Origin: Anaerolineae bacterium
Lineage (GTDB): Bacteria > Chloroflexota > Anaerolineae > 4572-78 > J111
Assembly: GCA_016926805.1 (NCBI GenBank)
Contig: JAFGNV010000181.1
Coordinates: 101,564-165,563, forward strand
Direction of reading: 5' to 3'
DNA length: 64,000 nucleotides
Numbering within the stretch: position 1 is the stretch's first letter; each line of letters opens with the position of its first letter. The position numbers and the translations under genes were made by a program. The notes beneath the pieces were generated by a model. It searched no databases. It was not told where the DNA came from and saw only the letters and a program-made list of their open reading frames with translations. Below are positions 29,778 to 49,249 of this stretch, one piece after another.

Positions 29778-29914
29778 CGAGCAGGGTTTAACAATTCTCT
29801 TGGGTGGGAGATCAACCACGCTACTTCACTTGGAGTCAGGCCGGTCATCCGGCATTGTCACAACCTGGGCCTTCTCGCGGACTCTCCTCAAGTTGGATTC
29901 CGGGAGTCGCACCA

Positions 29915-32900
29915 ATGCCTGACGATTTGCAACAAGCCATTATTGCCCTTAAATCCGGCCAGCGAGATCGGGCCAGACAATTGCTGCTGCAACTTCTAAA
30001 GGAAGAGCCGCACCACGATGCGGCCTGGGTGTGGTTATCACGCGCGGTCAACACCCCGGAGTGGCAGCGCGCCTGTTTGGATCGCGCCCTGAGCATCAAC
30101 CCCGACAATCCTGAAGCCCACGAAGCTTTACTCGATTTGATTGCGGCCGAGGCGGACAGCGAATTACCCGGCAGCAAAAGCCCTCCGGCAACACCTGCCA
30201 CCCCTCCCCTAACCAGTGCCCTTCCCGGCGGCGCCAACCTCAAGGAGTTCTTGCAGAACCTCCACAAAAACCTGAACCTGCTCAAAGAGCGCGAAGCCAA
30301 ATACGCCACCGCTGCCCCGTTGGACCTGCTCAACCAGATTGACGATTACCAAACCGCCATCGCCCTCACCGAACACGCCCTGGAACTGGACGTGCCGATG
30401 GCCGACTTACAGGCCGAGTTCGGTAGCCTGAACCTGCAAATCAGCACCGTAGTTTTTGTCGGCGAGGAAAAACCGCGCCATCCCTTCACCGGGGCCAACC
30501 CCTATCGCGGTCTGCGCAAATTCACCGAGGAGGATGCCAAGTTCTTCTTTGGCCGCAATGCCGCCATCCAGAGCGTATTGGGAATGGTGCAGTACCTGGT
30601 GGACACCGAAACCAGCGTGCAAACGCCTGATCTGATTGCGGTGCTGGGGCCGTCGGGCAGCGGCAAATCCTCGCTGGTGCGGGCGGGCCTGATCCCGGTG
30701 CTGTGGGATAATGGGGTGGAAGGCAGCTTTCAGTGGCCCATCAAGGTGATGCTGCCCGGCGAACATCCGCTGGATGCCCTGGCTTTGACCTTTGCCGGTG
30801 AGGTCGGCCGCGACCTGGCTTCTATTCGCGACACGCTGGCCGGTGGCGAAAAAGCTTTGCATGATCTGATGGTTGAGAGCCTGACCGTGACCAACAAACC
30901 GGACGAGGCAATCTTCGTGCTGGTCATCGACCAATTTGAAGAGTTGTTCAGCCTCTGCGAGGATGAAGCCGAACGCCGCGCCTTTATCGAGCAAATTCTC
31001 TACGCCGCCCAAACACGGCGCAATCGTTGCATGGTACTCCTGACCATGCGCAGCGACTTTTACAGCAAGGTGGCGGCCTACAAACCCTTGGCCGAGGCCG
31101 TGACCCGCCAGCAGATGCTGGTCAGCCCGCTGACCGAGAAAGAGTTGCGCGAGGCCATCCTGCTGCCCGCCGAAACCGTGGGCCTGGAATTGGAAAAAGA
31201 ACTGGTTGAGCGCTTGCTGGCCGACACCGCCGACGCCCCCGGGGTGCTGCCCCTGCTGCAACACGCCTTGCTGGAGTTGTTCCACCGGCGCGACGGCAAC
31301 CTGCTGACCCTGGCCGCTTACAATGAAATTGGCGGGGTGCAGGGCGCGCTGGCCCACCGCGCCGACAGTGTAGTGAACGAATTGACCCCCGACCAGCAGC
31401 AGACCGTGCGCCGTATTTTTCTGCGCCTGATCCAGCCCGGCGAAGGCACCATCGATACCCGCCGCCGGGCGGCGTTAACCGAGGTCTTGACCACCGACAG
31501 CGAGACCGAGTCGGTGGAAGGTTTGGTACAAACTCTGGCCAATGCTAACCTGTTGACCACCAGCTTTAACCCCGAGGCTAATGAAACCGTGCTGGATGTA
31601 TCTCACGAAGCCCTCATTCAAAAGTGGCCGCTGCTACGCCACTGGCTAGACGAAGACCGTGAAGGGCTGCGCATCCGCCAGCAGTTGAGCCAGGCCACCC
31701 GCGATTGGCAGGAACGAGAACACGATGAGGACAGCCTGTACCGGGGCGCGCGTTTGTTGGAAGCGGAGGAATGGGTAGAAACCCACCCGGACGAGATCAA
31801 CCCATTGGAGCAATCATTTATTGCCGCCAGCGTAGCTGCCCGCGAGCAGGCTGCGTTGGAACGCCGGAAACGCACCCAGCGGTTTATTGCCGGTTTGATC
31901 GTGGGCTTAGTCTTGGTGGCCATTGCCGCGGTGTTTGGCTTTGTCGGGCAGGATCGGGCGTCCAAATCCGAAGCCACAGCTCTTTCTGAGTCCACAAACA
32001 CGGCTGAAGAAAGAGATCGCGCCAATTTGCAAAGTACACGTGCTTTTGAAAATGAACAACGGGCTGAGAATGAGAAAGCAACAGCGCTGGCTGCAGTCAA
32101 TGCCGAAGTAACAGCTGTTGCAGTTGCCGAGGCAAGACAGGCAGAAGCCGAAGCTGCCCGTGCTGATGCCGAACAGCAGGCCCGTCTCAGTCAGGCGCGG
32201 GAGTTAGCTATACAATCCCAACAGGCTTTATCAAACAACCATCAACAACGGGCGCTCCTGCTGGCTATAGAAGCCTTCAACACTACGCAAAAAACAGATC
32301 CCTATCAAACCGCTCCCATCCAGGCCCTTCGTGATGTTCTGCCAGAAGTCTCAGGTCTTCCTTTGGTTGGACACAATGGAACAGTGAGTTCCATAGCTTT
32401 TAGCCCGGATAACCAATGGTTGGCGACGGCCAGCACAGGGGATGAAACTGTTCGGTTATGGTCTGTCACAAATCCAGAAGCCGAGCCTTACCTTCTGGAA
32501 AATCATCGCGGTGGTGTAGGTTCCTTAACCTTCAGTCCTGATAATCAATGGTTAGCAGTTTTCAGTCGTAGCGATGGTGCGATATGGTTATGGTCCCTCG
32601 GTAATTTCCAAACTGAGCCTAGGGTTTTACAGAGCCAGGTGGACTTTTTTAGATCCAATGTTCTAACCTTTAGCCCTGATGGCCGATGGTTAGCACATGT
32701 CGGAAGCTTGGAAACAACTGCCGGAACTTATGAAAAAATTATCCAACTGTGGCCAATCACAAATCAAGACGAGGAGCCTCAGCTTCTGCAAGGTCATGAG
32801 GGAGGTGTAAAGGCCGTGACGTTCAGCTCGAACGGTGAATGGCTCGCAGTTGCCAGCGATAGTGGAGTTGTACGGTTATGGTCGGTTGAAGACCTTGCAG

Positions 32901-35335
32901 CAGAGCCGAAAACATTATTCGGTAATGAGGATGAAGTAGACCTTTTGGCCTTTAGCCCCGACAGTCGCTGGCTGGCAACCGGTGGTGATATTGTCCGGTT
33001 ATGGTCGGTCAATAATCTAGAAGCAGAACCGCGGGTGTTCCCTAACCTAAAGCGAGCTTCGGCGCTAGGCTTTAACCAGGAGGGAAACCTACTAATCGCA
33101 ACTGAAAGTGACAGTACTGTTTGGTCGTGGTCAGGCAATGAGCCCGAAGCCGACCCAGAAATAGTACGTGGTTATGAGGGATGGGCTAAAGCGTTCAGCC
33201 CTAACTGTGAGTGGTTTATTACCACCGCAGGCGACAACACCATCCAACTGTGGTCATTAGTTGATCCGGAAGCTGACCCTCAAATGGCACGCGGACATGA
33301 AGATTATATAACATCGGCTGCCTTCAGCCCTGATGGCCAATGGTTGGCTACAGGTAGTGAAGATGGTTCCGCGCGATTGTGGTCTGTGGATAATCTAAAA
33401 ATAGAACCTATGGCTTTGCGTATCCCTTATAAAAATACTGTTTGGGATCTTGCTTTTAGCCCAAACAATCAGTGGCTTGGCGTAGCTAGTCCAATTGGCA
33501 ATATTTTTTTATGGCCAACTGCCGACTTGGAGGCCGAACCTCAATTAATAAATGGTTACCACGATGGGTCAACTATTCTAGATTTTAGCCCTGACGGACA
33601 GTGGTTGGCTACTGCTTCTTCCACTTCCAATGAAAAGGTTGTTCTATTGTGGCGAACTGCCACTCTAGGTGCAGAACCACAAGTACTTCTCGGTCATGAG
33701 GGTTATGTCAATGCCATAGCCTTCAGCCCCGACGGGAAATGGCTTGCTACTGCCAGTACTGATTTTACGATCCGGTTGTGGTCACTAGACAATTTGGATA
33801 TCCAGCCCCGCATCTTTTATACCTATGCTCATACTGAGTATACTCCCCCATATTTAGATATTCCTAAAACGGTAACCTTTAGTCCCGATAGTCAATGGTT
33901 AGCTATCGCCGTAGATAAAACTGTTCAATTACAATCATTGATCGATACTGAAACTTTACCATACATTTTATATGATCACGAAAGTGATGTCTCGGACTTG
34001 GCCTTCAGCCTTGACGGGCAATGGCTGGCATCTGCAAGTAACGATGGTACTGTACGCATATGGTCTTTCGAAACCAATTCAATTGGATCGGAAATAAGCC
34101 CGGTTGGAGAGTCACGTATCTTGCTTGGCCACGAAAGCAGTGTTCACACCGTGGCTTTCAGCCCAGACAGCTATTGGCTGGCTACCGCCAGTGAGGACAA
34201 CACTATCCGAATATGGTCACTCATGTATCCGAAAGCGGAATCTCAGATATTGAGGAGTGAAGGTGTTACAGACATAGCCTTTAGCCCCGATGGGAAATGG
34301 TTAGTTACCGGTAACTGGATTGATAGGGTTTGGTTCTGGCACATGCATGCAGATGAGTTGACCGATTTGGCATGTAAGTACACCGGACGTAATTTTACTT
34401 TTGAGGAATGGCAACGCTATTTCCCGGAAGGATATACCCGGACCTGTCTAAACTGGCCTAAGCACCCCAGCGTAATTGAAGGTATAAAATCGGAGGGCCA
34501 GAGTCTGGTCTTAGCCGGAAAATGTGATGAAGCTATGACTAAACTTAATGAGGCGATCACCCTCAGTGTTGAATATGGGTTTGATTCAGAGGAAATTAAG
34601 CAAGATGTTGTTCGTATATTAGAAACAGGGTGGCAAAACCTTGCTTTTTCCGGTCAGATTGACGAAGCGATCGTATGTTTGAAAAAAATACAGATCATTG
34701 ATCCGGAATCCCAAATAGAAAATCCTGAACGCAATGTTAAAGACCTTGCCACGCATGGTCTAATGAATAAGGGAAACCAGCTCGTAGAGCAAAACAGAAT
34801 TGATGAAGCAATTGCCAAATATAAGGAGGCGATTTCTCTTGCTCAAGAAATAGAAGTGGATTTTGGAGAACTTGATGAAAACAGTTTTGTCGCCTATAAA
34901 CTAATTGAAATTGGAGCAGAGTTAGCACAGTCGGGAGAAATATTGGAGGCTGTGGCGAAATTCGAGAAAGCAAAAACGTTTGATCCGGCGATGGTCACCA
35001 AGGAAATCGACTCGGCATGGAGGTGGAATACTCTTTGTCGGCAGGGTAGTTTGTGGGGGCACGCTAGCCTCGTGAAGGAATTTTGCAATGAAGCCGTAAC
35101 TTCGGCCAATGAATACAGTCTTGCGGAATTCCGTGATAGTCGTGGTATCAACCGGGCCTTGTTGGGTGATTATACAGGAGCCATTGAAGATTTTGAGGAA
35201 TTTGTGAAATTTTACCAAGATAACGAAGATTATCAGGAGCAAGTAGTCCAGCGTCAGGGTTGGATAGAAGATTTACGGGCGGAGAAAAATCCGTTCGATG
35301 ATGAAACGTTAGAGCAATTAAAATCGGATGAATAA
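29915..35335 (+). CDS. Giant STAND NTPase with WD40 propellers and TPRs
   Basis: This protein of about 1806 aa begins with a TPR-like segment (residues 1-75), then an nSTAND1-type module from NPYRGLRKFTEEDAKFFFGR (about 195), with P-loop LGPSGSGKSSLVRAG (about 244) and FVLVIDQFEELFSLC. It continues with a transmembrane segment (about 657-679, AGLIVGLVLVAIAAVFGF), an Ala/Glu coiled-coil, about 15 WD40 blades (about 815-1478; GHEGYVNAIAFSPDGKWLATAS pattern) and C-terminal TPRs (1500-1806). STAND proteins are signal-dependent molecular switches; some bacterial ones act in phage defence, others in signalling. No effector domain is recognisable here, so the output is unknown. I choose ATG 29915 (GGGAG upstream) over the GTG at 29804. 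The second half is visibly AT-richer than the ATPase part. Confidence 0.88.
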   Translation: MPDDLQQAIIALKSGQRDRARQLLLQLLKEEPHHDAAWVWLSRAVNTPEWQRACLDRALSINPDNPEAHEALLDLIAAEADSELPGSKSPPATPATPPLTSALPGGANLKEFLQNLHKNLNLLKEREAKYATAAPLDLLNQIDDYQTAIALTEHALELDVPMADLQAEFGSLNLQISTVVFVGEEKPRHPFTGANPYRGLRKFTEEDAKFFFGRNAAIQSVLGMVQYLVDTETSVQTPDLIAVLGPSGSGKSSLVRAGLIPVLWDNGVEGSFQWPIKVMLPGEHPLDALALTFAGEVGRDLASIRDTLAGGEKALHDLMVESLTVTNKPDEAIFVLVIDQFEELFSLCEDEAERRAFIEQILYAAQTRRNRCMVLLTMRSDFYSKVAAYKPLAEAVTRQQMLVSPLTEKELREAILLPAETVGLELEKELVERLLADTADAPGVLPLLQHALLELFHRRDGNLLTLAAYNEIGGVQGALAHRADSVVNELTPDQQQTVRRIFLRLIQPGEGTIDTRRRAALTEVLTTDSETESVEGLVQTLANANLLTTSFNPEANETVLDVSHEALIQKWPLLRHWLDEDREGLRIRQQLSQATRDWQEREHDEDSLYRGARLLEAEEWVETHPDEINPLEQSFIAASVAAREQAALERRKRTQRFIAGLIVGLVLVAIAAVFGFVGQDRASKSEATALSESTNTAEERDRANLQSTRAFENEQRAENEKATALAAVNAEVTAVAVAEARQAEAEAARADAEQQARLSQARELAIQSQQALSNNHQQRALLLAIEAFNTTQKTDPYQTAPIQALRDVLPEVSGLPLVGHNGTVSSIAFSPDNQWLATASTGDETVRLWSVTNPEAEPYLLENHRGGVGSLTFSPDNQWLAVFSRSDGAIWLWSLGNFQTEPRVLQSQVDFFRSNVLTFSPDGRWLAHVGSLETTAGTYEKIIQLWPITNQDEEPQLLQGHEGGVKAVTFSSNGEWLAVASDSGVVRLWSVEDLAAEPKTLFGNEDEVDLLAFSPDSRWLATGGDIVRLWSVNNLEAEPRVFPNLKRASALGFNQEGNLLIATESDSTVWSWSGNEPEADPEIVRGYEGWAKAFSPNCEWFITTAGDNTIQLWSLVDPEADPQMARGHEDYITSAAFSPDGQWLATGSEDGSARLWSVDNLKIEPMALRIPYKNTVWDLAFSPNNQWLGVASPIGNIFLWPTADLEAEPQLINGYHDGSTILDFSPDGQWLATASSTSNEKVVLLWRTATLGAEPQVLLGHEGYVNAIAFSPDGKWLATASTDFTIRLWSLDNLDIQPRIFYTYAHTEYTPPYLDIPKTVTFSPDSQWLAIAVDKTVQLQSLIDTETLPYILYDHESDVSDLAFSLDGQWLASASNDGTVRIWSFETNSIGSEISPVGESRILLGHESSVHTVAFSPDSYWLATASEDNTIRIWSLMYPKAESQILRSEGVTDIAFSPDGKWLVTGNWIDRVWFWHMHADELTDLACKYTGRNFTFEEWQRYFPEGYTRTCLNWPKHPSVIEGIKSEGQSLVLAGKCDEAMTKLNEAITLSVEYGFDSEEIKQDVVRILETGWQNLAFSGQIDEAIVCLKKIQIIDPESQIENPERNVKDLATHGLMNKGNQLVEQNRIDEAIAKYKEAISLAQEIEVDFGELDENSFVAYKLIEIGAELAQSGEILEAVAKFEKAKTFDPAMVTKEIDSAWRWNTLCRQGSLWGHASLVKEFCNEAVTSANEYSLAEFRDSRGINRALLGDYTGAIEDFEEFVKFYQDNEDYQEQVVQRQGWIEDLRAEKNPFDDETLEQLKSDE

Positions 35336-35497: not shown

Positions 35498-36553
35498 TTA
35501 ACCCACAGCCACGCTGCGAAACATCTGCTCAAAGGAGTCGCTGTTGGTGCTGGGAGGCGGGCCATTCTGATAAACTTGTTGAATTACTTCTCCGGGAGAT
35601 AGTAGCTCCTGGCCGCGCTGCTGATGCGCTTGCATAGCTTCGGCTGCCGCCGCTTCCAGTTGCAGGGCATAAGAATTCAGGCCATAAAGCATTGCTGATG
35701 AACGACTCAAGGCAATAGCGACCCTACTGATATCCTGGCCGCTAAAAATGATGAGGCCCATCTTCACCATCCACGCCGGCATTAATGAGGCGGCGGCAAG
35801 ATTCAAGATTGAACTTCCTATTGCTGGATCATGGCAAGTGACGGGTTCGAAAAAACCGACACAAGCTGGTACTACATGTTTGACGAAGTAATCGCGTATG
35901 GCCTCTGGCTCGTCTTCTGGCAAGACCAGCCCGGCCAGCAGCACCGCCCCGCCAAGGATATTGTCGGGATGGCACAAGGCTTGCTTGAGCCGTTCGTGAA
36001 CCATCTGCTCGCCAGTTAACCCTATGGTCATTTCTGCTAACAGTCTAGCGACAGGCCATGGTGTATACACCTCGGCGTTATTGCTACCCATATTCACCCA
36101 AGTCTGATAGAGATAGCCCAGAATATCGGGTCCACTGAGCGGGCCGGCAATGTTGAGACTGTTTGGCTCGCCCCACAAGCCGGGGGCCGTCGCTTCCAGC
36201 AGCAAGGCGAATGCCTCGCCAAAATGTTGCCAGATACGGTGGGTGCGCTCTTCGTTTAGCCAGCCGCCGGCATAGTGGGTGCGAATTTGGGCAAACGTTT
36301 CGGCGATTTCCGGTGGATCGTCGGCAAAGTGACCGGTGGCCCCGACCGCTTTGATCTGTTCCGGCAAGGCTTTCAAGGTCGCCTCAGACAGGAAGACAAA
36401 ATGATCGAAAACCTCACGGTTGGTTCTGCCCGAGATGGCCGTGATTTGCTCAAGCCGCCGGATGATTTCTTTGGGAAAGTCACGTTGGGCAAAAGGGACA
36501 GCCGTTCGCTTTTTTAAGCGACGGCGTTTGACGGTTTTTTTGTTAGCCATCAT
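35498..36553 (-). CDS. Degenerate N6-adenine methylase-like protein (paralogue 1)
   Basis: This 351-aa protein carries remnants of an N6-DNA methylase fold: AEVYTPWPVARLLAEM (like the TP-x-x-V entry motif), CHDPAIGSSILNLAAAS (like the SAM-binding DPACGSG motif, but altered) and LYGLNSYALQLEAA. No NPPY/NPPF catalytic motif is visible, so methyl transfer is unlikely. The N-terminal third (ATGHFADDPPEIAETFAQIRTHY ... GEAFALLLEATAPGL) is shared with the 371-aa protein at 39197-40312. The C-terminus ends near SFEQMFRS, a variant of the SFADLF tail on two neighbours. It overlaps the upstream gene by four bases. It may be a structural or binding component rather than an enzyme. Confidence 0.65.
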   Translation of the reverse strand: MMANKKTVKRRRLKKRTAVPFAQRDFPKEIIRRLEQITAISGRTNREVFDHFVFLSEATLKALPEQIKAVGATGHFADDPPEIAETFAQIRTHYAGGWLNEERTHRIWQHFGEAFALLLEATAPGLWGEPNSLNIAGPLSGPDILGYLYQTWVNMGSNNAEVYTPWPVARLLAEMTIGLTGEQMVHERLKQALCHPDNILGGAVLLAGLVLPEDEPEAIRDYFVKHVVPACVGFFEPVTCHDPAIGSSILNLAAASLMPAWMVKMGLIIFSGQDISRVAIALSRSSAMLYGLNSYALQLEAAAAEAMQAHQQRGQELLSPGEVIQQVYQNGPPPSTNSDSFEQMFRSVAVG

Positions 36554-36975
36554 CCTGCTCCTTCCAACACCATTTCCGGTGCTTCTGTCTCTTCAGTGAT
36601 AATGAAGGCAGCTTCCACCAGCAGATCCAGCGAGTCATCATCCTCATCGTCAGCCGTGATGACTTCCTCGGCCAAGCAGATGTCGGTCCAGCGCAGGGAG
36701 GGCGTGGCCGGATAGGTGGTGGTAATGACGATCTCAACGCCGGAAGCCAGCCGGTATCGCGAGACAATATCGGCCAGATCGCTGCGAGTTTCGATGGCCT
36801 GGCGATTGAGCGCGATTTGTTCTTCAGAAATGCTCCCCCCATCACCGGTGAGGTGACGGCAGAGCAGCGCGAGTGCCGTAGCGCCGGTTTCACGGATGGC
36901 GGCCAAAGCCGCCGCCGTGCAGGTGATCTCGCCGGATGCAAAGCGCATTTGTGGTTTTGATTGTTGGTCAGACAT
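36550..36975 (-). CDS. Plasmid-type small conserved protein
   Basis: This 141-aa protein has MRFASGEITCTAAALAAIRETGATALALLCRHLTGDGG and EIVITTTYPATPSLRWTDICL. The layout resembles a small protein family common on plasmids and genomic islands (FALGQIVATPGAL...LLxRHxSGDWG...). Those proteins are sometimes loosely annotated as restriction-related, without a known function. An acidic C-terminal extension (ADDEDDDSLDLL) is unusual. AGGAGGT precedes the ATG. It is translationally coupled to the methylase-like gene downstream. Confidence 0.6.
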   Translation of the reverse strand: MSDQQSKPQMRFASGEITCTAAALAAIRETGATALALLCRHLTGDGGSISEEQIALNRQAIETRSDLADIVSRYRLASGVEIVITTTYPATPSLRWTDICLAEEVITADDEDDDSLDLLVEAAFIITEETEAPEMVLEGAG

Positions 36976-37024
36976 ACGATAACCTCCTGTAGATTTTGAA
37001 CGGGTGACGGTTTAACCAACCAAG

Positions 37025-37059
37025 AATCCCCTGGCGCCACTTAATAACGCCAGGGGATT
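37025..37059. terminator. Strong hairpin between two cluster genes
   Basis: AATCCCCTGGCG and CGCCAGGGGATT form a perfect 12-bp stem with an 11-base loop. A T run exists only on the plus strand. For the minus-strand genes it may act as an mRNA processing or stabilising hairpin rather than a full terminator. Confidence 0.6.
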
Positions 37060-37073
37060 TTGCTGCCGCGAGG

Positions 37074-37439
37074 TCAGGTCTTAATCTGGTCGATACAATG
37101 CGGCGAAGGTGGCTGGTTGGATAGGTTTTGTTGAGTGTCAGAACGGTGCTGTTGTTCTCCTTGTCTCTTCCATTCCTTGTTGACCGCTTCCAATAGATTG
37201 GGGCAGAGTTGCGGCCAATAGAGTGGCCCGGCGATGGCCGAAGCCAGGCAAACAGCGCGGGTAATGGGGTCCAGGCAGTCGGAAATGGCGGTGGTGAAAT
37301 TCAAGTGGGGATTGCGCAGGACAACAATGCTATCTTCCCGGTCGCGTACCTCCAGACCAAGACGCCGGCTCCAGTCGGCCACCGTGGCCACCGGGGCAAA
37401 GGTCATTTCGACCAGGCGGGGGGTGATCAATGTTTTCAT
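37074..37439 (-). CDS. Hypothetical protein of the ubiquitin-like cluster
   Basis: This 121-aa protein has an alpha/beta-looking N-terminal part (EMTFAPVATVADWSRRLGLEVRDREDSIVVLRNPHL) and a hydrophilic C-terminal tail rich in Gln and Asn. AAAGGAG lies upstream of the ATG. No motif recognised. The proteins around it are element- or plasmid-like, so a replication or partition accessory is conceivable but unsupported. Confidence 0.5.
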   Translation of the reverse strand: MKTLITPRLVEMTFAPVATVADWSRRLGLEVRDREDSIVVLRNPHLNFTTAISDCLDPITRAVCLASAIAGPLYWPQLCPNLLEAVNKEWKRQGEQQHRSDTQQNLSNQPPSPHCIDQIKT

Positions 37440-37469
37440 GGTTCAGTCTCCTTTGTTAGGTGAGTTTTT

Positions 37470-38723
37470 TTACAGCAAGGCTGGCCAATCCGGCGATACC
37501 TTGAGTTGGCCGGCCTCGACCTCCCGGGCCAGGGCCAGCCGGATGTCCTCATCGACAATTTCTTGCCAGCGATGCGTGTCAGCATCGTAGTAGATGGCGT
37601 CGGCTTTTTTGGCCATAGTGATGGGATGGGTCAGAATGCCCCGGATGAGGAGGGGATACTGCCGGCCATCCGGGGCGTGATAGCGGTCTTTGATCCGCTC
37701 GTGAGGGGCGCCGGCGGCGGGCACCGGGGGGGGCGAACCTACCGGCGCAGGGCCATTGGTACGAGCAGCGTCAGTGACCTGGTAGGCCCTGGCGGGCGGC
37801 GTACGGGTGAAGAGTGTCGTCGGTGGCCGGGTAGCGGTTGACGGCCAGGCGGGGTAACGCGGTGGCGTCACGTCGCTACCCAGGTCGGGTTGTGACGGGC
37901 GCGGCGCGGGTTGAAACAGCGGACTGGGACCGCGCCCGCCGGGCGGCTGACCTCGGATCAACGGCTGATCACTGATCAGCACGTCATAATCGGCAGTGCC
38001 GGGCTGGCCATCGTCCCGTTCACCTTCATCAATCAACAGCCAATTGGCGGCAAAAAAAGCCCGCTTGAGATAACCCAGGCTGGTGGCGTGTTCCAACTCG
38101 TTGATGCTGCCGATGAAGCCGGGGATACTCTGCGGATCGCGGTCGCCCTTGACCACATCAATGATGACGCGTGGCGCAACTTCGCGGTCAAAATAGAACT
38201 CGCGATGGGGCAGGCTGAAACTGCGGACGTGGGTCAGGGTTTTGCTCACGTCCCACACCTGCACGGTAAAGGTCTGGCCGTGCCAGGTGCGCCCCGACTC
38301 GGGGAAGTAATAGCCGTTGGCCGCCAGCAACCGGCTGCCCAGCAGCCAGCGCAGGGCAGCCGCGGTTCGCGGGGTCAAGGGGCTTTGCCGGATGGTGACG
38401 CCGCGATACCGCTCGATGACGTCGCCGCGCCCCAGCAGCCGCACGCCAAAAGTGACTAGCGAGCCGGTGACCTGTTCCAACGCGTGCAGGGCCATCATCG
38501 CGCCCAGCAAGCCGGTCAGTTTGGGCAGGCCCTTTTCCAATCCGGCCACGCCAAAAAAAGCGGCGGTGATGTCGCCGATGCGGCGAGGTAACTCTTCCGG
38601 CCGGGATACGTCCCGGTAGCTGCTCCAACTGCCGAGGGTATTGAGGTATCGATGCACCTGGCCCAACAGGCCGTTGCGTTGGGCGGCGTTTTTAGAGGGT
38701 AGGTTGTGATGGGAGTGGATCAT
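37470..38723 (-). CDS. Unknown protein with proline-rich linker
   Basis: About 417 aa from MIHSHHNLPSKN, which follows AGGAGACG; the longer ORF-track start lacks a ribosome site and crosses the hairpin repeat. Residues about 20-255 form a folded region (GLEKGLPKLTGLLGAMMALHALEQVTGS, TFTVQVWDVSKTLTHVRSFSLPH, FDREVAPRVIIDVVKGD). Residues about 260-340 are a Pro/Arg-rich linker, and about 345-417 a small C-terminal domain (DGRQYPLLIRGILTHPITMAKKADAIYYDADTHRW). No known family. It is placed between the methylase-like paralogues in the cluster. Confidence 0.6.
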   Translation of the reverse strand: MIHSHHNLPSKNAAQRNGLLGQVHRYLNTLGSWSSYRDVSRPEELPRRIGDITAAFFGVAGLEKGLPKLTGLLGAMMALHALEQVTGSLVTFGVRLLGRGDVIERYRGVTIRQSPLTPRTAAALRWLLGSRLLAANGYYFPESGRTWHGQTFTVQVWDVSKTLTHVRSFSLPHREFYFDREVAPRVIIDVVKGDRDPQSIPGFIGSINELEHATSLGYLKRAFFAANWLLIDEGERDDGQPGTADYDVLISDQPLIRGQPPGGRGPSPLFQPAPRPSQPDLGSDVTPPRYPAWPSTATRPPTTLFTRTPPARAYQVTDAARTNGPAPVGSPPPVPAAGAPHERIKDRYHAPDGRQYPLLIRGILTHPITMAKKADAIYYDADTHRWQEIVDEDIRLALAREVEAGQLKVSPDWPALL

Positions 38724-38767
38724 AGGAAATCGTCTCCTGATCAGTGAAATAAGTGTTTTAATGTGGT

Positions 38768-38832
38768 GAAAAACTCCGGAGGAGTTTCTGACGCTTTCGC
38801 TTACGGTAGAAGCCATTTTTTTGGCTTCTCCC
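38768..38832. repeat. Paired-hairpin repeat, copy C
   Basis: GAAAAACTCC/GGAGTTTCT followed by GTAGAAGCC/GGCTTCTCCC. This is the same two-stem design as copies A and B, with shorter loops and a partly diverged first stem. Confidence 0.65.
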
Positions 38833-39196
38833 ATAACATAGGCTTATCCTTTCTATTCAATTCAGGGGAAAAAACCGGCCCATCCCCCAACAGCGGGGAG
38901 GGGGAGAGAACTTGCGCGCAGCGCGGCCCATTCAACGGCTACCGGGCTGGGTATGGGGTGGAGAGGGGCAATGGCCGGGCCAGACCTGGGTGGGGCAGGG
39001 GCTGGCCCGGGGCATCGCGATTAGCCGTCAAGTCGGGTCAAAAATCTGCTATTCTGCCAATGTTCTGATCGTGGTTTGTCAGGAAGCTCTTATCAGGATA
39101 GCGGTTCTTCGGGAAGGCTGGTTCTGCGCTGTTACTGCCCCGCCAACATCTTCGGGACAGGTTTACGAGTTGCGGGCTGCGCCGCTGACGCCCTGA
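38833..39196. other. GC-rich intergenic stretch with no gene seen
   Basis: About 360 bases lie between the start of the 417-aa gene and the stop of the 371-aa gene. Short ORFs here look like shadows, and no ribosome site or motif supports them. A GCCGGGCC-type GC-rich stretch near 38935-39010 may fold, but I assign no function. Confidence 0.4.
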
Positions 39197-40312
39197 TTAT
39201 GAGCCAGCCGATTGGGGCGGCTTCTGGAACAAGTCGGCAAAGGAGGGGTGACCGGCTTGCCGGCGGGGTTCGGTCGAATCTCCAGTTTCTTGAGTCAACG
39301 GTGGTCGAGTTGGATAGACTGCCAGGGGAGGAACATCGAGGGGGTCGTCGGCCTGTTGTGCCAGTTGCGCCTGGACGTCGGCGAGTGCTCGCGATTGGGC
39401 CAGCCGGTAGCCGTTCAAGCCAAACAGCATTGTATTGATGTTGGCCATCTGCCGCAGCAGGGGATCGGTGGGTTCCCAGACCACACGGACCAGAGCGCTC
39501 TCTAACGCCCACGCTGGAAACTGCGCGGCCGCCGCCAGCAGCATCGCACTGGAGTCAACCAGCGGCGGCCCGACCAGCAGCGGCTCGGCATACGGCAGAA
39601 CGGCCTCATACCATTCGGCGAAATTGTCGCCGGGTTCCGGCGTAAGCGCAACCCCGGCGCGGTGGGCCTTCAGCCCGGCGTACACCAGAACCGTGTTGGC
39701 TTGCTCTGCGCCATCGGGAATAGCAGCCTGGGCCGCGATCAGACAGTCGGCCCAGGAGTCGCCAAAGAACGGGGTCCATCTGGCCGGGAAATCGAGACAG
39801 GTCAGAAACACCTGGCCGATGACGTTGGGATTGAGGTCGGTTTGTTGACCGTAGTGGGCCAGGCCGGGTGCGGCGCTGTCCAGCAGCAGGGCAAAGGCTT
39901 CGCTAAAGGCAGCCTGCATCTGGCGATAAACGGCCGGATATTGGGCCGAAGCGCGCAGATACCGCTCTCTGGCCCGGCTGAAGATGGCCTGGATGTCGGG
40001 GGGGTCTTGGGCAAACTGGCCGGTAGCCGTCAGCGCCCGCCATTGCTCCGGCCACATCTTTAAGCCACTTTCCAGCATCCCCAGCCAATCTTTCAGTAGC
40101 GTGATGATGGGGATAGTTGACGTGGCCGCCATCTGCCGGATGAGGTGGGCGATGACTTGCACATATGGGTTGTCTATCTGTGCGGGAACAAGCGTAGGTC
40201 GGTGGGGAACCGGCCTGGGCTGGTCTAGCGGGGCGGGGAGTCTTCGCGTGGCAGGTGGGGAATGGGTGCTTGGATTCGTCGTCGCACGACGGCGTTTGTG
40301 TTTTTTGCTCAT
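39197..40312 (-). CDS. Methylase-like scaffold protein (paralogue 2) with SFADLF tail
   Basis: This 371-aa protein is clearly related to the 351-aa protein at 35498-36553. Shared blocks include TATGQFAQDPPDIQAIFSRARERY, SEAFALLLDSAAPGL, RWTPFFGDSWADCL and NTMLFGLNGYRLAQ. The SAM-site block is further decayed (VDSSAMLLAAAAQFPAWAL), and no catalytic NPPY is seen. The N-terminus is a basic, Pro-rich tail (MSKKHKRRRATTNPST), and the C-terminus ends HPSFADLFQKPPQ, nearly the same tail as its upstream neighbour. It starts inside the stop of that neighbour (ATGA) with GGAGAAAG upstream. I infer a non-catalytic partner, perhaps a substrate or docking subunit of the ubiquitin-like system. Confidence 0.65.
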   Translation of the reverse strand: MSKKHKRRRATTNPSTHSPPATRRLPAPLDQPRPVPHRPTLVPAQIDNPYVQVIAHLIRQMAATSTIPIITLLKDWLGMLESGLKMWPEQWRALTATGQFAQDPPDIQAIFSRARERYLRASAQYPAVYRQMQAAFSEAFALLLDSAAPGLAHYGQQTDLNPNVIGQVFLTCLDFPARWTPFFGDSWADCLIAAQAAIPDGAEQANTVLVYAGLKAHRAGVALTPEPGDNFAEWYEAVLPYAEPLLVGPPLVDSSAMLLAAAAQFPAWALESALVRVVWEPTDPLLRQMANINTMLFGLNGYRLAQSRALADVQAQLAQQADDPLDVPPLAVYPTRPPLTQETGDSTEPRRQAGHPSFADLFQKPPQSAGS

Positions 40313-40608
40313 CGTTCTTTCTCCGGCAGGTCACGATTTTGCTTGTGTTTGAACAGGTCGGCGAAGGATGGGTCAACCGGTGGCGGCGGCGACCGCTTGT
40401 TCAACGTTATCTCCACCACCGTCTTGCCGGCTTCATCCGTAACGTGGGTCAACTGGTGCTGGCCGGGCAACGTCTTGACCATCGCCGCCATTTGCTGAAC
40501 AAACTCCAACGCCAGATCGCGGTTGATCGCCAACCGTTCGTGCAGGAGCGGCGGCCCGCCGTTCTTGCCGGTGACGGTGATTTCGATGTTTGCTTCAGGC
40601 TGTGCCAT
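40309..40608 (-). CDS. Small beta-rich protein with SFADLF tail
   Basis: This 99-aa protein has alternating strands and a helix (NIEITVTGKNGGPPLLHERLAINRDLALEFVQQMAAMVKTLPG ... GKTVVEITLNK), compatible with a small alpha/beta fold. The proline-rich C-terminal tail ends DPSFADLFKHK. The tail nearly repeats that of the 371-aa protein. It overlaps the E1-like gene by 14 bases and the next gene by four. It could be an adaptor or a second modifier. I cannot assign a family. Confidence 0.6.
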   Translation of the reverse strand: MAQPEANIEITVTGKNGGPPLLHERLAINRDLALEFVQQMAAMVKTLPGQHQLTHVTDEAGKTVVEITLNKRSPPPPVDPSFADLFKHKQNRDLPEKER

Positions 40609-41830
40609 CGGTCACCGCCTCGTTTTCCGGGATCAAGGCGTACCATTCGCACTGGAGGCAATTGAGGACCGGCACGGGCCGGCCATTGCCCTCAAAATCA
40701 ACCACATCCTCGCCAAGCTCCCCGCCGCACTCGGGACAAACTTCCTCCCGCCAGGGACACGCGGCGCAGAAGCGCACCGCAATCAAGACGCCCCGGTACT
40801 CGTCCTGCCCGGCAATGATCTCGCCGCCACAATCGGGACAGGTTTCGGCCATTTCCTCCGGCGCGGCGGCTCTGACCGGGATGTGTTGGGGCCGTTCGGG
40901 CAGCACCAACCGCCCGCCGGTGATGGGGATACTCTTGGTCATACCGGTTTGAAGATTCACCCAGGAGCCGGACCAACCCAAATCTCGACTTTGTAGCAGG
41001 CGGTACAGGTACACGCCCACCAGCGTGGCCATCATCCGGTTGATCATGGCACTCTGTTCGCCCCGCAAGTTCAGGTCGGCGCAGCTCAACTCTTGTTGGA
41101 GATGATCTCGCTCCAACAGCAAACTCGGTTCCTGAAGGTGGGGTAGCGGCAGGCCGAGGCAGTAGCCCAGCGGCGAGAGCAGCGGTTCCGGCTCCAGGCT
41201 GTTGCCGATCAAGACCTGGCCGCTCAGCCGCTCGTTGCCGGCGTCCAGCCAGAAGAACTTGTGTTGGCTGCCATGCTGTTGTTTGAGTTTGGCCGTGATG
41301 GCCTCGGCCATTTTGCGCCGGGCGCAAACATTGTCCACCGCGCCGATGACGATGGTCAGCGTGCCCTGGGGAGAGTAAGCCGGTTGGAAACGATCCAGCA
41401 ATTCTGCCGAGAATTGTTCCACCACCGGGGTGATGGTCAGGCCAAAGGCCGCGGTGTAACGCCAGGCCAGGCTGAAGGCCTTGGGATAGCCGACCTCGGC
41501 GGCACAGAAATTCTGGCGCACCAGGTTCTTTTCCTCAATGATATCGTGGTCCACAAAGTAGAGCCGCAGGTCAATCCCGGCGCTCCTGGCCCAGTTGGCC
41601 AACTGAGCCAGGATGTGGGCCACGAACGCCCCTGTACCGCCACAACCTATCAACAAAATGACCACCCGATCAGGATGGCCGATGTCGAGGCGATAGGTTT
41701 TGTGAGGACTGAGGGGGCGGGGTAGTAAGGGGGGAAGCAACCGTCGGTAAAGACGCTTTAGAAGCGTGCGGCCTTGTTGACCAACGTACAATGCGAGTTG
41801 TTTGAGATAGAGCCAATAGGGTTGCATCAT
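40595..41830 (-). CDS. E1-like ThiF-family adenylyltransferase with C-terminal zinc ribbons
   Basis: This 411-aa protein has a ThiF/E1 core (about residues 45-285). It shows VVILLIGCGGTGAFVAHILAQLA (nucleotide loop), YFVDHDIIEEKNLVRQNF (acidic and arginine motif) and TIVIGAVDNVCARRKMAEAI. It should adenylate the C-terminal glycine of a ubiquitin-like protein. The C-terminal part (about 330-400) adds four CxxC pairs (CPDCGGE, CAAC, CPECGGE and CLQC), forming probable zinc ribbons. PRTRC ThiF proteins that I know of are shorter and lack them. It overlaps the JAMM protease gene by four bases. Transfer via a catalytic cysteine is possible but cannot be located confidently. Confidence 0.85.
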   Translation of the reverse strand: MMQPYWLYLKQLALYVGQQGRTLLKRLYRRLLPPLLPRPLSPHKTYRLDIGHPDRVVILLIGCGGTGAFVAHILAQLANWARSAGIDLRLYFVDHDIIEEKNLVRQNFCAAEVGYPKAFSLAWRYTAAFGLTITPVVEQFSAELLDRFQPAYSPQGTLTIVIGAVDNVCARRKMAEAITAKLKQQHGSQHKFFWLDAGNERLSGQVLIGNSLEPEPLLSPLGYCLGLPLPHLQEPSLLLERDHLQQELSCADLNLRGEQSAMINRMMATLVGVYLYRLLQSRDLGWSGSWVNLQTGMTKSIPITGGRLVLPERPQHIPVRAAAPEEMAETCPDCGGEIIAGQDEYRGVLIAVRFCAACPWREEVCPECGGELGEDVVDFEGNGRPVPVLNCLQCEWYALIPENEAVTDGTA

Positions 41831-42513
41831 TTCCTCCAGGGTAACAGATTTGTTAGCCAGCCGTCCTCGATAGTGGGGGCAAAGGGTGCCGGTTCGCCGG
41901 GGTCAACGTAGACCTGGACAAAAGGGCCAAGATCATCAAAGATGGCTTGGGCCGGCACGTTGGCCAGCCAGTGGCCGTGCATCCCTAATCTCAAGACCAA
42001 CTCCGGCTGCGCTCGTTCTAGGTGGCCGATGACGCCGTAAAATCTTCCGCCCATTTCGTCTCGATCATCCGTGCCGGAGAAAAAAGCCGGCATCGTATTG
42101 TGCGAGTGAATCTCTACGGCGACCCCGGTCGGGTCGGCAGTGTAACCGAGCCAGGTTTTGCCGCGTTCCTGCCGAGGGCGAATGACGGCCCACCGGTTTT
42201 GGGCCGGGTCAAAGCGGAATTGGTAGAGTACTTCCAGTTCCAGGTTTTGCCGGGCGTCGGCCAGTATGTCTTGCAGCAAGCGGCCGGGAATGCGCGGCAG
42301 TTTGAAGCGCACCGGCGGTAAGGGATACGTCGCCAGCCGCAGGCCGGTCAGTGAGACGTCAAGGGGCGCCAACAGGTGGTCGGCGGAAACAAACGGCGTC
42401 TCCAGGCGCTTTACGATGCCCTGCGCGGAGAGGACATAATCATACAACCGTTCGGGCCGGGGCAAGGGGTTGCCCTGATACAGGTAGATGGGGATCAAGT
42501 TTTCATTGAACAT
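41827..42513 (-). CDS. JAB/JAMM metalloprotease (PRTRC protein A-like)
   Basis: A 228-aa protein. A complete JAMM zinc site is visible: VEIHSHNTMPAFFSGTDDRDE fits HxH-x7-SxxD, with an upstream glutamate (RQERGKTW or nearby) as candidate catalytic base. The flanking regions match PRTRC-type A proteins (LPRIPGRLLQDILADARQ, GGRFYGVIGHLERAQPELVLRLG). Members of this family are expected to process or remove ubiquitin-like modifiers. Here the tandem Ubl protein encoded about 1.5 kb upstream is the obvious substrate. The gene overlaps both neighbours (4 and 11 bases), implying coordinated translation with E1 and E2. Confidence 0.85.
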   Translation of the reverse strand: MFNENLIPIYLYQGNPLPRPERLYDYVLSAQGIVKRLETPFVSADHLLAPLDVSLTGLRLATYPLPPVRFKLPRIPGRLLQDILADARQNLELEVLYQFRFDPAQNRWAVIRPRQERGKTWLGYTADPTGVAVEIHSHNTMPAFFSGTDDRDEMGGRFYGVIGHLERAQPELVLRLGMHGHWLANVPAQAIFDDLGPFVQVYVDPGEPAPFAPTIEDGWLTNLLPWRK

Positions 42514-43234
42514 GGATCAACCTCCGTAGGGTGAAATGAGTTTCGATTAGATCGTCCAGGGGATAGACGTCGGCATTGGCCTGGTGCAGCGCCTGCCACT
42601 GGTCGAGGATGCAATCGGGGTAGGCTTTGCTTTTGTGGTTGGACAGGTCGCGGTTGAACTTGCTGCTGAAAAAGATGTCCAGCGCGTGCCAGATGGTGGT
42701 CGCACTGGCGCGGGGAAAGGGCGCGCTGCCGCGACAGACGCCTTGAGGATGGACGTTGGGGCAGGGGGCCAGGTACAGCGGGGTGTCGGCGCCGGTGGGT
42801 TCATCCTTCACCGCCCATAAGCCGTAGTCGTAGTCGTGGCCGGTGAAGACCAGGCCGGGCAGCGGCACCCGCCAGGCCTCTGTTTCGTCCCGCACGCTGA
42901 CCAGCCAGACCTGGGGCGGCACGAAAATCCCCAGCCGGTCGGCGCCGTGGTGTTTGCCCCAGAAGAGGCAGTGGCGGGGCAGCAGGCCGGAGTTAAGGTC
43001 CAACCCGGCCAGGGTCGCCGCCAATTCGGTGGGATCAACCAGGTGACAGGCGGACACCTGGCCTTGCTTGAACTTGGAAAGTATCACAAAATCGTCATAC
43101 AAATCCAGGCGAACCTGGAGTTGGGCATAGTCGGCTTCGCCCCACTGGAGAGCCGGGTAGATCAGGTCGGGAATAGCGGTCGGTTCCTGAGGTAGGTGAG
43201 GGGGAGAAGCGTGGGGATTACCATGCAAGGTCAT
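42503..43234 (-). CDS. E2-like conjugating protein (PRTRC protein B-like)
   Basis: About 243 aa. It matches PRTRC protein B, a prokaryotic E2-fold family. CPNVHPQGVCRGSAPFPRAS corresponds to the conserved N-H-G-x-C block with a candidate catalytic cysteine, and DIFFSSKFNRDLSNHKSKAYP follows the family pattern F-x-S-x-F-N. The first third (LYDDFVILSKFKQGQVSACHLV) is beta-rich. I start at MTLHGN because the GGAGGT inside the longer ORF start serves as its ribosome site. It overlaps both neighbours. It is expected to accept the modifier from the E1-like protein and pass it to targets. Confidence 0.8.
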   Translation of the reverse strand: MTLHGNPHASPPHLPQEPTAIPDLIYPALQWGEADYAQLQVRLDLYDDFVILSKFKQGQVSACHLVDPTELAATLAGLDLNSGLLPRHCLFWGKHHGADRLGIFVPPQVWLVSVRDETEAWRVPLPGLVFTGHDYDYGLWAVKDEPTGADTPLYLAPCPNVHPQGVCRGSAPFPRASATTIWHALDIFFSSKFNRDLSNHKSKAYPDCILDQWQALHQANADVYPLDDLIETHFTLRRLIHVQ

Positions 43235-44096
43235 GACAATTACCTCCATTCATCAAAAAATCGGCCAGTTGCGCCAGGCGGCCGTGATCCTGTTCGTACC
43301 ACGCCAGCAGTCGATCCAATACCTCGATCACCGGTTTGGCCCGCCGCCAGGCGGTTTTGAGCTGCTCCACGTCAGGCTCCCGCCAGGTGAACCACGGTCC
43401 TTCCCGGTAGGGGTCGAAGTGCTGATCCAGCATCACGTTGCCGGTGCGATGGCCGGCCCAGCGGGCCAACTCCGGCAGCCAACGCACCGGCTCGGCATAC
43501 CGGCCCGGGTCGGCCTCGATCTGCTGCAACAGCCTCCAGGCCGACTCGCGCTCCTGCGGCGTCCACTCGTCCAGATGGTCGTACAACTCGCTGTCGATGA
43601 GCAGTTGGGAACTGACGGCGTGGATTTCGCACTCGGCCAACAACGCGTGCAGCAGTTCCATCGGCGGGCAGTCGAACAGGGACTCGGTGTCGGTGAAGCC
43701 GTACAGGGTGACCGGAACGTAATGTAAGAACACGGCCAGGTGATCGCCCCGTTCTTCATCCGGATTCTCCATCCAGTGGGACCAGGCATCGTTGAGCACC
43801 GGCCAGTTGATGGTGAACCAGTCGGCTTCTTCGACCAGGTTGGCCAGGTGAGCGAGTACTTCCCACCAACCTTTGCCGGATAGATCGCCGTCGTCGGCCA
43901 GCGCTGCCGGAAAGTACTGCTCGATGAGGCGCAGTCCCCGGCCCAGCCGTTCGTACTCGCCCAGGCGATATTGGAAGCCGGTCAGGGTGACCGGCCGCAG
44001 CCGCCCCAGCCAGGCCCGGGGACGGATCACCTGGCCCGGTTGGGTCAAAAGCCCAGCGGAATCTTTGGATGGGGTATCGGCGTCAGTTGTAAACAT
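43218..44096 (-). CDS. Unknown cluster protein (PRTRC-like context)
   Basis: This 292-aa, mostly helical protein is rich in Trp, Leu and Glu (GLRLIEQYFPAALADDGDLSGKGWWEVLAHLANLVEE, VPVTLYGFTDTESLFDCPPMELLHALLAECEI). I recognise no motif. It sits between the tandem Ubl gene and the E2-like gene, the slot held by an accessory protein in PRTRC operons. Its start overlaps the Ubl gene by 52 bases, and the ATG lacks a clear ribosome site, so a later start (for example TTG near LLTQPGQVIRP) is possible. Confidence 0.65.
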   Translation of the reverse strand: MFTTDADTPSKDSAGLLTQPGQVIRPRAWLGRLRPVTLTGFQYRLGEYERLGRGLRLIEQYFPAALADDGDLSGKGWWEVLAHLANLVEEADWFTINWPVLNDAWSHWMENPDEERGDHLAVFLHYVPVTLYGFTDTESLFDCPPMELLHALLAECEIHAVSSQLLIDSELYDHLDEWTPQERESAWRLLQQIEADPGRYAEPVRWLPELARWAGHRTGNVMLDQHFDPYREGPWFTWREPDVEQLKTAWRRAKPVIEVLDRLLAWYEQDHGRLAQLADFLMNGGNCHDLAW

Positions 44097-44842
44097 TGTT
44101 GTCCGATCCTTTGGCTGGTCGTGGCGATACGTTCGGCCTGGTGCAGCGCGCTCTCGATCTCCGGGGTCAGCGCCAGCAGATGGCTGACGCTGAAGGCCTG
44201 CTGGTCGTCGGTTTCCATAGCCCTGATCCGGTCGAGCAGGGTGATGGCCTGCAACTGGGTGGGAGGCAGTTGGTTCAGGCAGGCTACCAGTTGGCGCGGC
44301 GCGACACCGCCGCCCTTTTCGCCGGTGACTTTGACGAAGGTGATCTCCTCGGTACCATCCGGTAGGGTGCGCGTGTGCCAGGTGCCGTTGCCGAGTTCGG
44401 GATACGTCATTGCCAGGAAGTCGAGCACGTCTTGCGCCGAATATTCCGGGCCCGGATCGGCAAAGACCTGGCTATCGTACAAAAAGACCCGCCGGTAGGG
44501 AGAGTGGTTATCTGTAGGAGCTGGCAGCAGCGGCGGGCTGTCAGATGGCAGGTCGTAGATGGTGACCTGGCCGCCCTTTTCGCCGGTGACTTTGACAAAG
44601 GTGATCTCCTCGACGGCTCCAGCCGGGCCGTCGGGAATGGTGCGGCTGTGCCAGGTGCCGTTGCCGAGCTCGGGATAGGTCATCGCCAGGAAGTTGAGCA
44701 CATCCTGCACCGAATACTCCGGCCCCGGGTCCTCAAAGACCTGGTTGTCGTACAAAAAGACCCGCCGGGGGGCGGGTCGGTCTGGGGCGGAGGCCGAGGA
44801 AACCTGGCCTTGTGCTGGTTGATCAAAAAAATCGGCTTGCAT
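44045..44842 (-). CDS. Tandem ubiquitin-like (PRTRC protein C-like) precursor
   Basis: This 265-aa protein contains two near-identical beta-grasp units. Unit 1 spans about residues 27-92 and unit 2 about 117-178. Each begins RRVFLYD, has DPGPEYS(V/A)QDVL(N/D)FLAMTYPELGNGTW and ends in KVTGEKGG. They match PRTRC protein C, a ubiquitin-like family (LPDPGP, YPEL, GTKG signatures). A roughly 24-residue linker separates the units. A helical C-terminal region of about 85 residues follows the second GEKGG. Diglycine ends inside a longer chain suggest a precursor cut to expose GG, like polyubiquitin. AGGAG precedes the ATG. Downstream come E2, JAMM and E1 genes. Confidence 0.85.
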   Translation of the reverse strand: MQADFFDQPAQGQVSSASAPDRPAPRRVFLYDNQVFEDPGPEYSVQDVLNFLAMTYPELGNGTWHSRTIPDGPAGAVEEITFVKVTGEKGGQVTIYDLPSDSPPLLPAPTDNHSPYRRVFLYDSQVFADPGPEYSAQDVLDFLAMTYPELGNGTWHTRTLPDGTEEITFVKVTGEKGGGVAPRQLVACLNQLPPTQLQAITLLDRIRAMETDDQQAFSVSHLLALTPEIESALHQAERIATTSQRIGQQCLQLTPIPHPKIPLGF

Positions 44843-46881: not shown

Positions 46882-47043
46882 ACTTCATTGGTGGGCGAGG
46901 AAGACGCCCATTCAGGTGAATGACCACCAATCATGCACACTCGAAACGTTCGCAGGCAAATTCATAACCTGACGTCGGACATCGGTAGTATATTTGTGAC
47001 TTGCTGACCGCATCGCTCATTATTGGACGATGCGGTTTTTTTT
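46882..47043 (+). ncRNA. Candidate structured small RNA of about 160 nt
   Basis: The interval between the promoter and the terminator folds well. ATTGGTGG (46887-46894) pairs with CCACCAAT (46924-46931). Between them lie a GGCG/CGCC hairpin and ATTCAggTGAAT (46910-46921). A CGAA/TTCG hairpin follows near 46941-46951. The layout of promoter, three-way junction-like fold and intrinsic terminator is that of a stand-alone ncRNA. A 24-codon ORF (MHTRNVRR..., 46933-47007) lies inside without a ribosome site, so a leader peptide cannot be excluded. It sits exactly between the ubiquitin-like cluster and the CRISPR locus. I do not recognise it as a known RNA class or as a CRISPR-derived RNA. Confidence 0.5.
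47008..47043 (+). terminator. Rho-independent terminator of the candidate ncRNA
   Basis: CCGCATCG pairs with CGATGCGG, followed by eight T bases. It is oriented for plus-strand transcription and overlaps the stop of the convergent Csx3 gene. Confidence 0.85.
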
Positions 47044-48202
47044 AGGCGATCTCGATTGATTCACCGAGGGGGTGTTGGTCTGTTTGCTGCGAGGCGACAA
47101 TAATGGCCCGGTGCTGATGAGGATAATAGATAGCCACCCAGCACGCCCGTCGATAAAAAAGGGCCAGGCCGGTGTAGAGCCAGGTGGGTAATTTGCCGTC
47201 TAGAATCACCCCATGAGTTGACGGAACTGGGGGCAGGGAAAGAGACAGTTCCGGCTCATATTCCAGATAATCAGCAGGTAGGTCCACTTTTAAATGAAGG
47301 TAGTGTTCCGTTTGTTCGGTAGTAAGCGCGAGTGATGATTTTATGGGGCGAGCGTCGACAAAAATGACCGGTTCAACCCAACCACGGCGGGCATCGAATT
47401 GGTAAAAAGGGTTGGGGGAAATGTAGCCCGCTATCGCGGCATATAACCAGGCCGGACCTCGTCCATACAGCGCCAGCGGAGTATCTTGGGGAAGATAATC
47501 GAGAACAGGTGGAATGTCATCAGGATGCCACCGGTAGCCTGAACGGGAGGGATACAGCTGCCGGTAAAGACGAACCAGATCAACCACCAGATCAGTGGGT
47601 GCTTGCTGTTGGTGGATGTTCAATAGCTCATCATAGCTGTAATTGCAGAGGGCTTTTATACGTGTCACCAAAGCCTCAAATACGGATCCTTCAACCAGTT
47701 GACCCCGTTCCAAATTGGTAATAACTCCCTGCAAGATAGGATACTCAACTTCTAACTCAGATTGACCAACCAAACGCGACTTTAAGATAGCAATGATCGG
47801 CACGTGATATTTTTCCATCATTGCCTGCCAATAAGTTTCTGATTCGGCGTCTTTGACCAGCAAGACGGCGTGACTGCACAGATCAAAAATATCTTCCTGC
47901 CACGATTCTGGTTTGCCGCCAACATCGACCAGAAAAGGGAGAGGGCGGTAAGCAATGTCGCGACACATTTGCTTGACCCAGGTTGGCGTGAATTTTCCTT
48001 TGCGTCGCTCGGTTTCGGCCACAGCGGGAGGGGCCTCGTGAAACCAATCACCCTCACCATCAGGGGCAGCTCGTAGTAAATAATGTTGAATACCGGCCTT
48101 GGTCAGGGCTTCTTTTAGGCTGCGGGCCAGCACCGATTTTCCGGCGTGGGGTGGCCCACCAATGAGAATGGCTGGAAAGCGACTGGTAACTCTATTGGCC
48201 AT
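47042..48202 (-). CDS. csx3: P-loop NTPase fused to Csx3 (Crn3-like) domain(s)
   Basis: About 386 aa from MANRVTSRF. Residues 1 to about 210 form a P-loop NTPase (ILIGGPPHAGKSVLARSL; FLVDVGGKP as a likely Walker B region; HAVLLVKD). The C-terminal half contains two related segments. LALYGRGPAWLYAAIAGYI...YQFDARRGWV is the first, and VILDGKLPTWLYTGLALFYRRACWVAIYYP is the second. The latter matches the Csx3/Crn3 family, whose members degrade cyclic tetra-adenylate, so this protein probably damps type III signalling. NTPase-Csx3 fusions are known. The doubled Csx3-like segment is less familiar to me. It is divergent from the CARF regulator, sharing a 58-base promoter region. Confidence 0.8.
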   Translation of the reverse strand: MANRVTSRFPAILIGGPPHAGKSVLARSLKEALTKAGIQHYLLRAAPDGEGDWFHEAPPAVAETERRKGKFTPTWVKQMCRDIAYRPLPFLVDVGGKPESWQEDIFDLCSHAVLLVKDAESETYWQAMMEKYHVPIIAILKSRLVGQSELEVEYPILQGVITNLERGQLVEGSVFEALVTRIKALCNYSYDELLNIHQQQAPTDLVVDLVRLYRQLYPSRSGYRWHPDDIPPVLDYLPQDTPLALYGRGPAWLYAAIAGYISPNPFYQFDARRGWVEPVIFVDARPIKSSLALTTEQTEHYLHLKVDLPADYLEYEPELSLSLPPVPSTHGVILDGKLPTWLYTGLALFYRRACWVAIYYPHQHRAIIVASQQTDQHPLGESIEIA

Positions 48203-48260
48203 TAGATGTAGCTCGCTTTCTATAATGAGCCGATGATTTTGATGGCGACAGGATGGACCT

Positions 48261-49145: not shown

Positions 49146-49151
49146 TTAATT

Positions 49152-49182: not shown

Positions 49183-49249
49183 GGGAGGGATTTCTGATGC
49201 AAAATGCGTCATAATCAGATACGATATTATAGACAAGAGAGGAGGTTGT

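Follow-up and report, generated by a model that had tools for sequence, protein, structure and literature searches.

The closest described relatives of the gene cluster reported here are the PRTRC systems (Iyer et al. 2006, operon type 6d, PMC1779556; NCBIfam TIGR03735-03741); no paper stating a PRTRC function was found in the literature searched. The closest described peptide is the motif for binding the DNA sliding clamp, DnaN. Its published consensus is QxxLF, and its position 1 varies in DnaE3 polymerases (PMC12309361); the QL-x(1-2)-LF form binds the clamp cleft (PMC7261172). In this study, we analyzed a 64,000-nucleotide stretch of DNA from an Anaerolineae bacterium (contig JAFGNV010000181.1), hereafter the window, in which three proteins of a PRTRC-like cluster, T99, T371 and T351 (named after their lengths in residues), end with nearly the same short tail. 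As judged by sequence comparison, these tails are real, selected docking motifs. Their most likely common hub is DnaN, for which they would be a derived ligand without Gln; we give this reading an even chance.

Like the described PRTRC systems, the window cluster has the core genes in one operon: those for the ThiF-like E1, the JAMM protein (A), the Prok-E2_D protein (B) and the ubiquitin-like C protein are all present and adjacent. It differs in having no recognisable ParB or PRTRC_E, two ubiquitin-like repeats in C, and the additional tailed proteins T99, T371 and T351. Among ten cluster proteins scanned, PRTRC family models matched only E1, A and B, and neither ParB nor PRTRC_E was recognised beside the operon. 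Because the models score under their curated cut-offs and these two genes were not recognised, the cluster is, by its gene content, a divergent PRTRC system.

The tails of T99 (VDPSFADLFKHKQNRDLPEKER), T371 (GHPSFADLFQKPPQSAGS) and T351 (SDSFEQMFRSVAVG) carry the motif S-F-[AE]-[DQ]-[LM]-F, which occurs on 3 of the 14 cluster proteins. Both the reading frames and the tails lie on the minus strand at the coordinates given by an earlier sequence-only reading; the motif, with which that reading had the proteins end, is near-terminal and not at the extreme C-terminus, from which it is separated by 6-13 residues. With the final 30 residues of each of the 14 proteins shuffled, the strict motif was expected on 0.00005 proteins versus 3 observed, and none of the 20,000 shuffles reached 3 carriers. 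Written as a proline-anchored DNA pattern, P[ST]Fxx[LIM][FY][RKQ] has 21 matches across the 5.3-Mb genome, and only the T371 and T99 tails among them show an acidic/polar middle (matched bases judged by eye). The three proteins had been called otherwise different. This is true for T99, whose sole stretch in common with T371 is PSFADLF[KQ]; T371 and T351, however, are paralogues (29% identity over 330 residues, E 5e-17), so part of the tail sharing is homology. PSFADLF is identical in T371 and T99, while its codons differ synonymously at 3 of 21 nucleotides; thus, the peptide looks selected, and the copying of the tail was not very recent.

The same cluster is present in two further genomes of the family, G005 and G010, and the tail is conserved in both. 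In the G005 and G010 clusters, the T99 homologues carry PNFEELFR and PTFEEIYR, the T371 homologues QSFADLFR and QTFEQLFR, and the T351 homologues ATFEEMFR and LSFESLFR. One or two more proteins are tailed as well: the homologues of P121 (PTFETLYK in G005, PTFTDLYK in G010) and a 163-residue protein of G010 (PTFQEIYQ). A third T351-like copy in G005, which is interrupted by a stop and adjoins Tn7-like transposition genes, ends PSFEELFKQTT. Loss of tails from retained bodies, which the sequence-only reading would have counted against itself, was mostly not seen in the homologous clusters; the window copy of P121 is tail-less, so a tail can be lost.

In the three genomes, 3 of 14, 4 of 13 and 5 of 11 cluster proteins are tailed, versus 0.0002-0.0004 expected by shuffling. 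The tail is also modular, being found on at least four unrelated bodies: the methyltransferase-like pair, T99, P121 and the 163-residue protein, the last three of which had no homologous body that we could find beyond the three clusters. Between paralogues, identity is 57% in the motif, 31% in the body and 13% in the linker. The first proposal, one binding partner shared by the tails, is therefore well supported by the number of unrelated bodies, by conservation in three genomes, and by a tail that outlasts the linkers. That the resemblance is due to chance or to plain homology of the tailed proteins is favoured by the paralogy of T371 and T351; but T99 has no homology to either beyond the tail, P121 and the 163-residue protein had no matches among the tailed proteins, and the motif is more conserved than the bodies and far more frequent than in the shuffles. 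That explanation is already contradicted, and we regard it as extremely improbable. The tail might also lack a dedicated receptor and serve as an intramolecular or self-association element (an amphipathic helix) or as a degradation signal. The short helix that AlphaFold2 gives the T99 tail would suit this; however, a tail on unrelated bodies after non-conserved linkers fits trans-acting docking better, and several residues follow the motif, unlike in ssrA-type C-degrons, which makes such a role improbable.

Clamp-type peptides occupy the same place in homologues of the methyltransferase-like bodies. Outside the clade of the window proteins, these homologues carry, after a linker and at or near the end, QLEMF, QLELF, QLSLL, QMNLF or QQTLF, and a Burkholderia plasmid relative has a terminal QMTLF. 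In an unguided MAFFT alignment, SFADLF falls into the same columns as QMNLF and QQTLF, with Phe aligned to Gln. In a tree of the bodies without their tails, those with SF-type tails group together in one clade (96/93), and all remaining tailed rows are Q-type; one switch between Q and SF, in either direction, would fit this tree, whose root is not fixed. Like the DnaN motif (QL[S/D]LF or QxxLF), the window tails are short, near-terminal, linker-borne peptides on unrelated proteins, with an acidic/polar residue before a Leu/Met-Phe end that matches positions 4-5 of the clamp motif (ADLF, ADLF and EQMF). Unlike it, window-type tails have S/T-F in place of Gln, can end in Tyr, and are followed by R, K or Q. 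Two haloarchaeal relatives (L125 3004-3867 and L126 2992-3804) carry QASLLAF and QAEFAAF near the C-terminus, which resemble the PCNA-interacting peptide (PIP) box; these are two weak examples. Haloarchaeal hosts use PCNA, and in PIP-boxes (QxxhxxFF), as in the C-terminal peptides of T4/RB69-type polymerases, an aromatic/hydrophobic peptide docks in the clamp cleft. The window tails differ from the PIP-box in having no PIP Gln and in belonging to bacteria with DnaN.

The tails had further been suggested to be a recognition tag for the conjugation machinery (E1, E2 or JAMM). No specific support for this emerged. The homologues carry sliding-clamp peptides, also in the G569 locus and on one IMG/VR contig, where the stretch read yielded no PRTRC gene; as partner, this favours the clamp over E1, E2 or JAMM. 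In G569, dnaN lies 3 kb from the methyltransferase-like gene.

In PRTRC systems elsewhere, canonical QxxL[FL] stands at the end of proteins in the PRTRC_E position, that is, encoded upstream of PRTRC_C. It ends 9 of the 10 such proteins (from cyanobacterial systems and G062, Chloroflexota) versus 3 of 94 neighbouring proteins (Fisher 8e-10, an upper bound on the evidence, as the ten sequences are related and amount to fewer independent cases). Across nine cyanobacterial proteins of this position, the tail residues that never vary are Q and L. The ends of proteobacterial PRTRC_E proteins bear only a loose resemblance (ASLF, SFELF, SLFF, GIFG and others) and were not counted as support. Element-borne clamp genes are found nearby: the PRTRC operon of Leptolyngbya boryana pLBX (L121 1528-8737) has dnaN on its upstream side and is followed directly by holA; in G062, dnaN follows the E1 gene by 1.2 kb; and dnaN is also beside PRTRC on P. 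putida pZXPA-20 and X. hortorum pICMP7383.1. There are 372 plasmid records with a PRTRC E1 match in PLSDB, and other plasmids likewise carry dnaN (407 records); from these individual loci, the dnaN-PRTRC linkage is suggestive.

Several observations weigh against DnaN as the hub. The Gln of clamp-motif position 1 is missing in the window tails and canonical only in homologues, and it is important in E. coli (PMC12309361); that the SF form would still bind the clamp seems to us about evenly balanced. Of the tree's eight distant homologues, three lack a recognisable motif. The host DnaE keeps a canonical QLSMF and the host clamp has an ordinary C-terminus (MPMRL), so there is no sign that the clamp changed along with the tails. 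With the full DnaN model (TIGR00663, E<=1e-3), we found one clamp in the host genome (G000), one in G010 and no extra clamp; in the incomplete G005 assembly, the clamp was not found with this model, and no dnaN lies within the SF-type clusters. Clamp peptides bind in extended form, whereas the T99 tail is modelled as a short helix. An additional, diverged clamp in the SF genomes was considered and rejected: besides the negative TIGR00663 result, a permissive search using the C-terminal domain by itself gave only weak matches inside long open reading frames (E 0.26 or worse).

The main rival to the clamp is a receptor private to the cluster. The tails would then dock on a non-clamp cluster protein (C, B, A, E1, or else P141, P454, X223 or the F-position protein), and an ancestral clamp motif would have been re-purposed in the clade. 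Such a receptor would be expected to leave every clade tail SF-type on several unrelated bodies, as is observed; the candidate receptors are retained together in each of the three genomes, and the failure to find an extra DnaN also favours it. However, family scans recognised no peptide-binding domain in any cluster protein, and a private receptor does not agree with the clamp motifs of the G569 and IMG/VR bodies. We consider it possible but rather unlikely.

If DnaN is the hub, the tail would act as a short linear motif for docking, [ST]-F-x-[D/E/Q/S/T]-[L/I/M]-[F/Y]-[R/K/Q], carried by a flexible linker at the C-terminus, and would bring several PRTRC-associated proteins to one place, the linker letting the Leu/Met-Phe pair dock in the hydrophobic cleft of the clamp. 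In this way, an N6-methyltransferase-like protein that is catalytically incomplete and a small protein of the beta-grasp type would be concentrated on the element's DNA as it replicates. There, the tailed proteins or clamp-bound proteins could be acted on by the E1/E2/JAMM set of PRTRC; we infer that clamp docking serves the ubiquitin-like system. A wider and more doubtful proposal is that PRTRC in general is a clamp-centred ubiquitin-like system, in which accessories dock by terminal peptides on the plasmid or host clamp and E1/E2/JAMM modifies the clamp or clamp-bound proteins, as a bacterial counterpart of PCNA ubiquitin/SUMO signalling; the SF form would be the peptide as rewritten in the window clade. 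Terminal clamp peptides on E-position and accessory proteins, together with neighbouring clamp and clamp-loader genes, offer a testable site of PRTRC ubiquitin-like action, the replication clamp.

The AlphaFold2 model of T99 is of moderate confidence (predicted local distance difference test score 74, core about 84), and its best Foldseek match is protein L (E 1.5e-3); the fold predicted for T99 is a small beta-grasp domain. An equivalence of T99 to PRTRC_E was unsupported by hhalign profile comparison (probability 0.1-2%). As for the methyltransferase-like family, Pfam N6_Mtase matches the G010 homologue of T351 at 7.8e-10. Catalytic motif IV, [NDS]PP[YFW], is absent in T351, T371 and 18 of 18 relatives checked; since it is missing in all 20, the family members are unlikely to methylate DNA. 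In T371, the motif I glycines are lost too. Short relatives annotated 'N-6 DNA methylase', reached via the IMG/VR homologue, are common on conjugative plasmids; with the G010 methyltransferase-like protein as query, nothing was found in plasmid or phage collections. Like the window pair, these plasmid proteins have an S-adenosylmethionine (SAM)-binding N6-methyltransferase region without motif IV; T371 differs from them in its lost motif I glycines and its SF tail. The enterobacterial plasmid members (L127 3037-3855, L129 201-1046, L130 301-1098) start with MSQL[SD]F, continue with AEFF, ADFF or DALF, and may bear a similar peptide at the N-terminus instead. In G569, a second methyltransferase-like protein (L097 16785-17606), near the element-borne dnaN, ends QLALFR.

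The features of the cluster are listed in Table 1. The last 4 bases of the T99 gene overlap the start of T371. Three further upstream open reading frames had no Pfam match, and one E1-based search of genome contigs for relatives gave a single irrelevant locus.

Table 1. Genes and tail motifs of the PRTRC-like cluster, in window coordinates
Feature	Position	Strand	Description
T99, 99 residues	40309..40608	-	beta-grasp (ubiquitin/protein-L-like) domain by prediction, followed by the tail; G005 and G010 have homologues
T99 tail motif SFADLF	40351..40368	-	PPPP linker before; 13 residues to stop; predicted short helix, residues 82-92
T371, 371 residues	39197..40312	-	N6-methyltransferase-like, degenerate motif I, no motif IV, tailed
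T371 tail motif SFADLF	39227..39244	-	9 residues to stop
T351, 351 residues	35498..36553	-	T371 paralogue, SAM-binding region kept, no motif IV, tailed
T351 tail motif SFEQMF	35519..35536	-	6 residues to stop
P141	36550..36975	-	directly upstream of T351; untailed homologues in G005 and G010
P121	37074..37439	-	G005 and G010 homologues tailed, window copy not
PRTRC ThiF-like E1	40595..41830	-	TIGR03736 E 1.3e-34, under curated cut-off
PRTRC_A-like, JAMM/Prok-JAB	41827..42513	-	TIGR03735 1.7e-14, under cut-off; PF14464 4.8e-6
PRTRC_B, E2-like (Prok-E2_D)	42503..43249	-	PF14460 4.1e-20; TIGR03737 1.3e-15, under cut-off
F-position PRTRC protein	43218..44096	-	gene order; homologues in L014, L015, L019; no significant family match
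PRTRC_C-like	44045..44842	-	two tandem ubiquitin-like repeats plus C-terminal domain; Prok_Ub PF14454 1.6e-21, two stretches

One PRTRC E1 (L118 6944-7807) itself ends QSEMF, which is clamp-motif-like. In the window, PRTRC_A terminates in another conserved aromatic stretch, the second of this kind, GWLTNLLPWRK, which reads GWLTNLFQWRTS in G005 and GWFSKFFSWRS in G010. The C-terminal domain of the window ubiquitin-like C protein ends IPLGF; a separate small protein beside PRTRC_C ends IPLGF at L017 8214-8507 and another ends VPNGF at L018 5211-5477, as a fusion of the domain to the ubiquitin-like protein, or its splitting off, would produce.

Directly upstream of the cluster (47042-51811), the window carries type III CRISPR (clustered regularly interspaced short palindromic repeats) genes, including a Csx3-AAA region fusion, Cas_NE0113 and Cas10. 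A 1843-residue protein (29804-35335), with an NTPase-like N-terminal half and WD40-like repeats recognised by eye, is convergent with the end of the cluster, and a large serine recombinase (21700-23448) is a possible sign of an integrated element. At L122 7901-11098, CBASS-type (cyclic oligonucleotide-based antiphage signalling system) genes, encoding a DncV-like nucleotidyltransferase and a SAVED protein, adjoin a cyanobacterial PRTRC operon.

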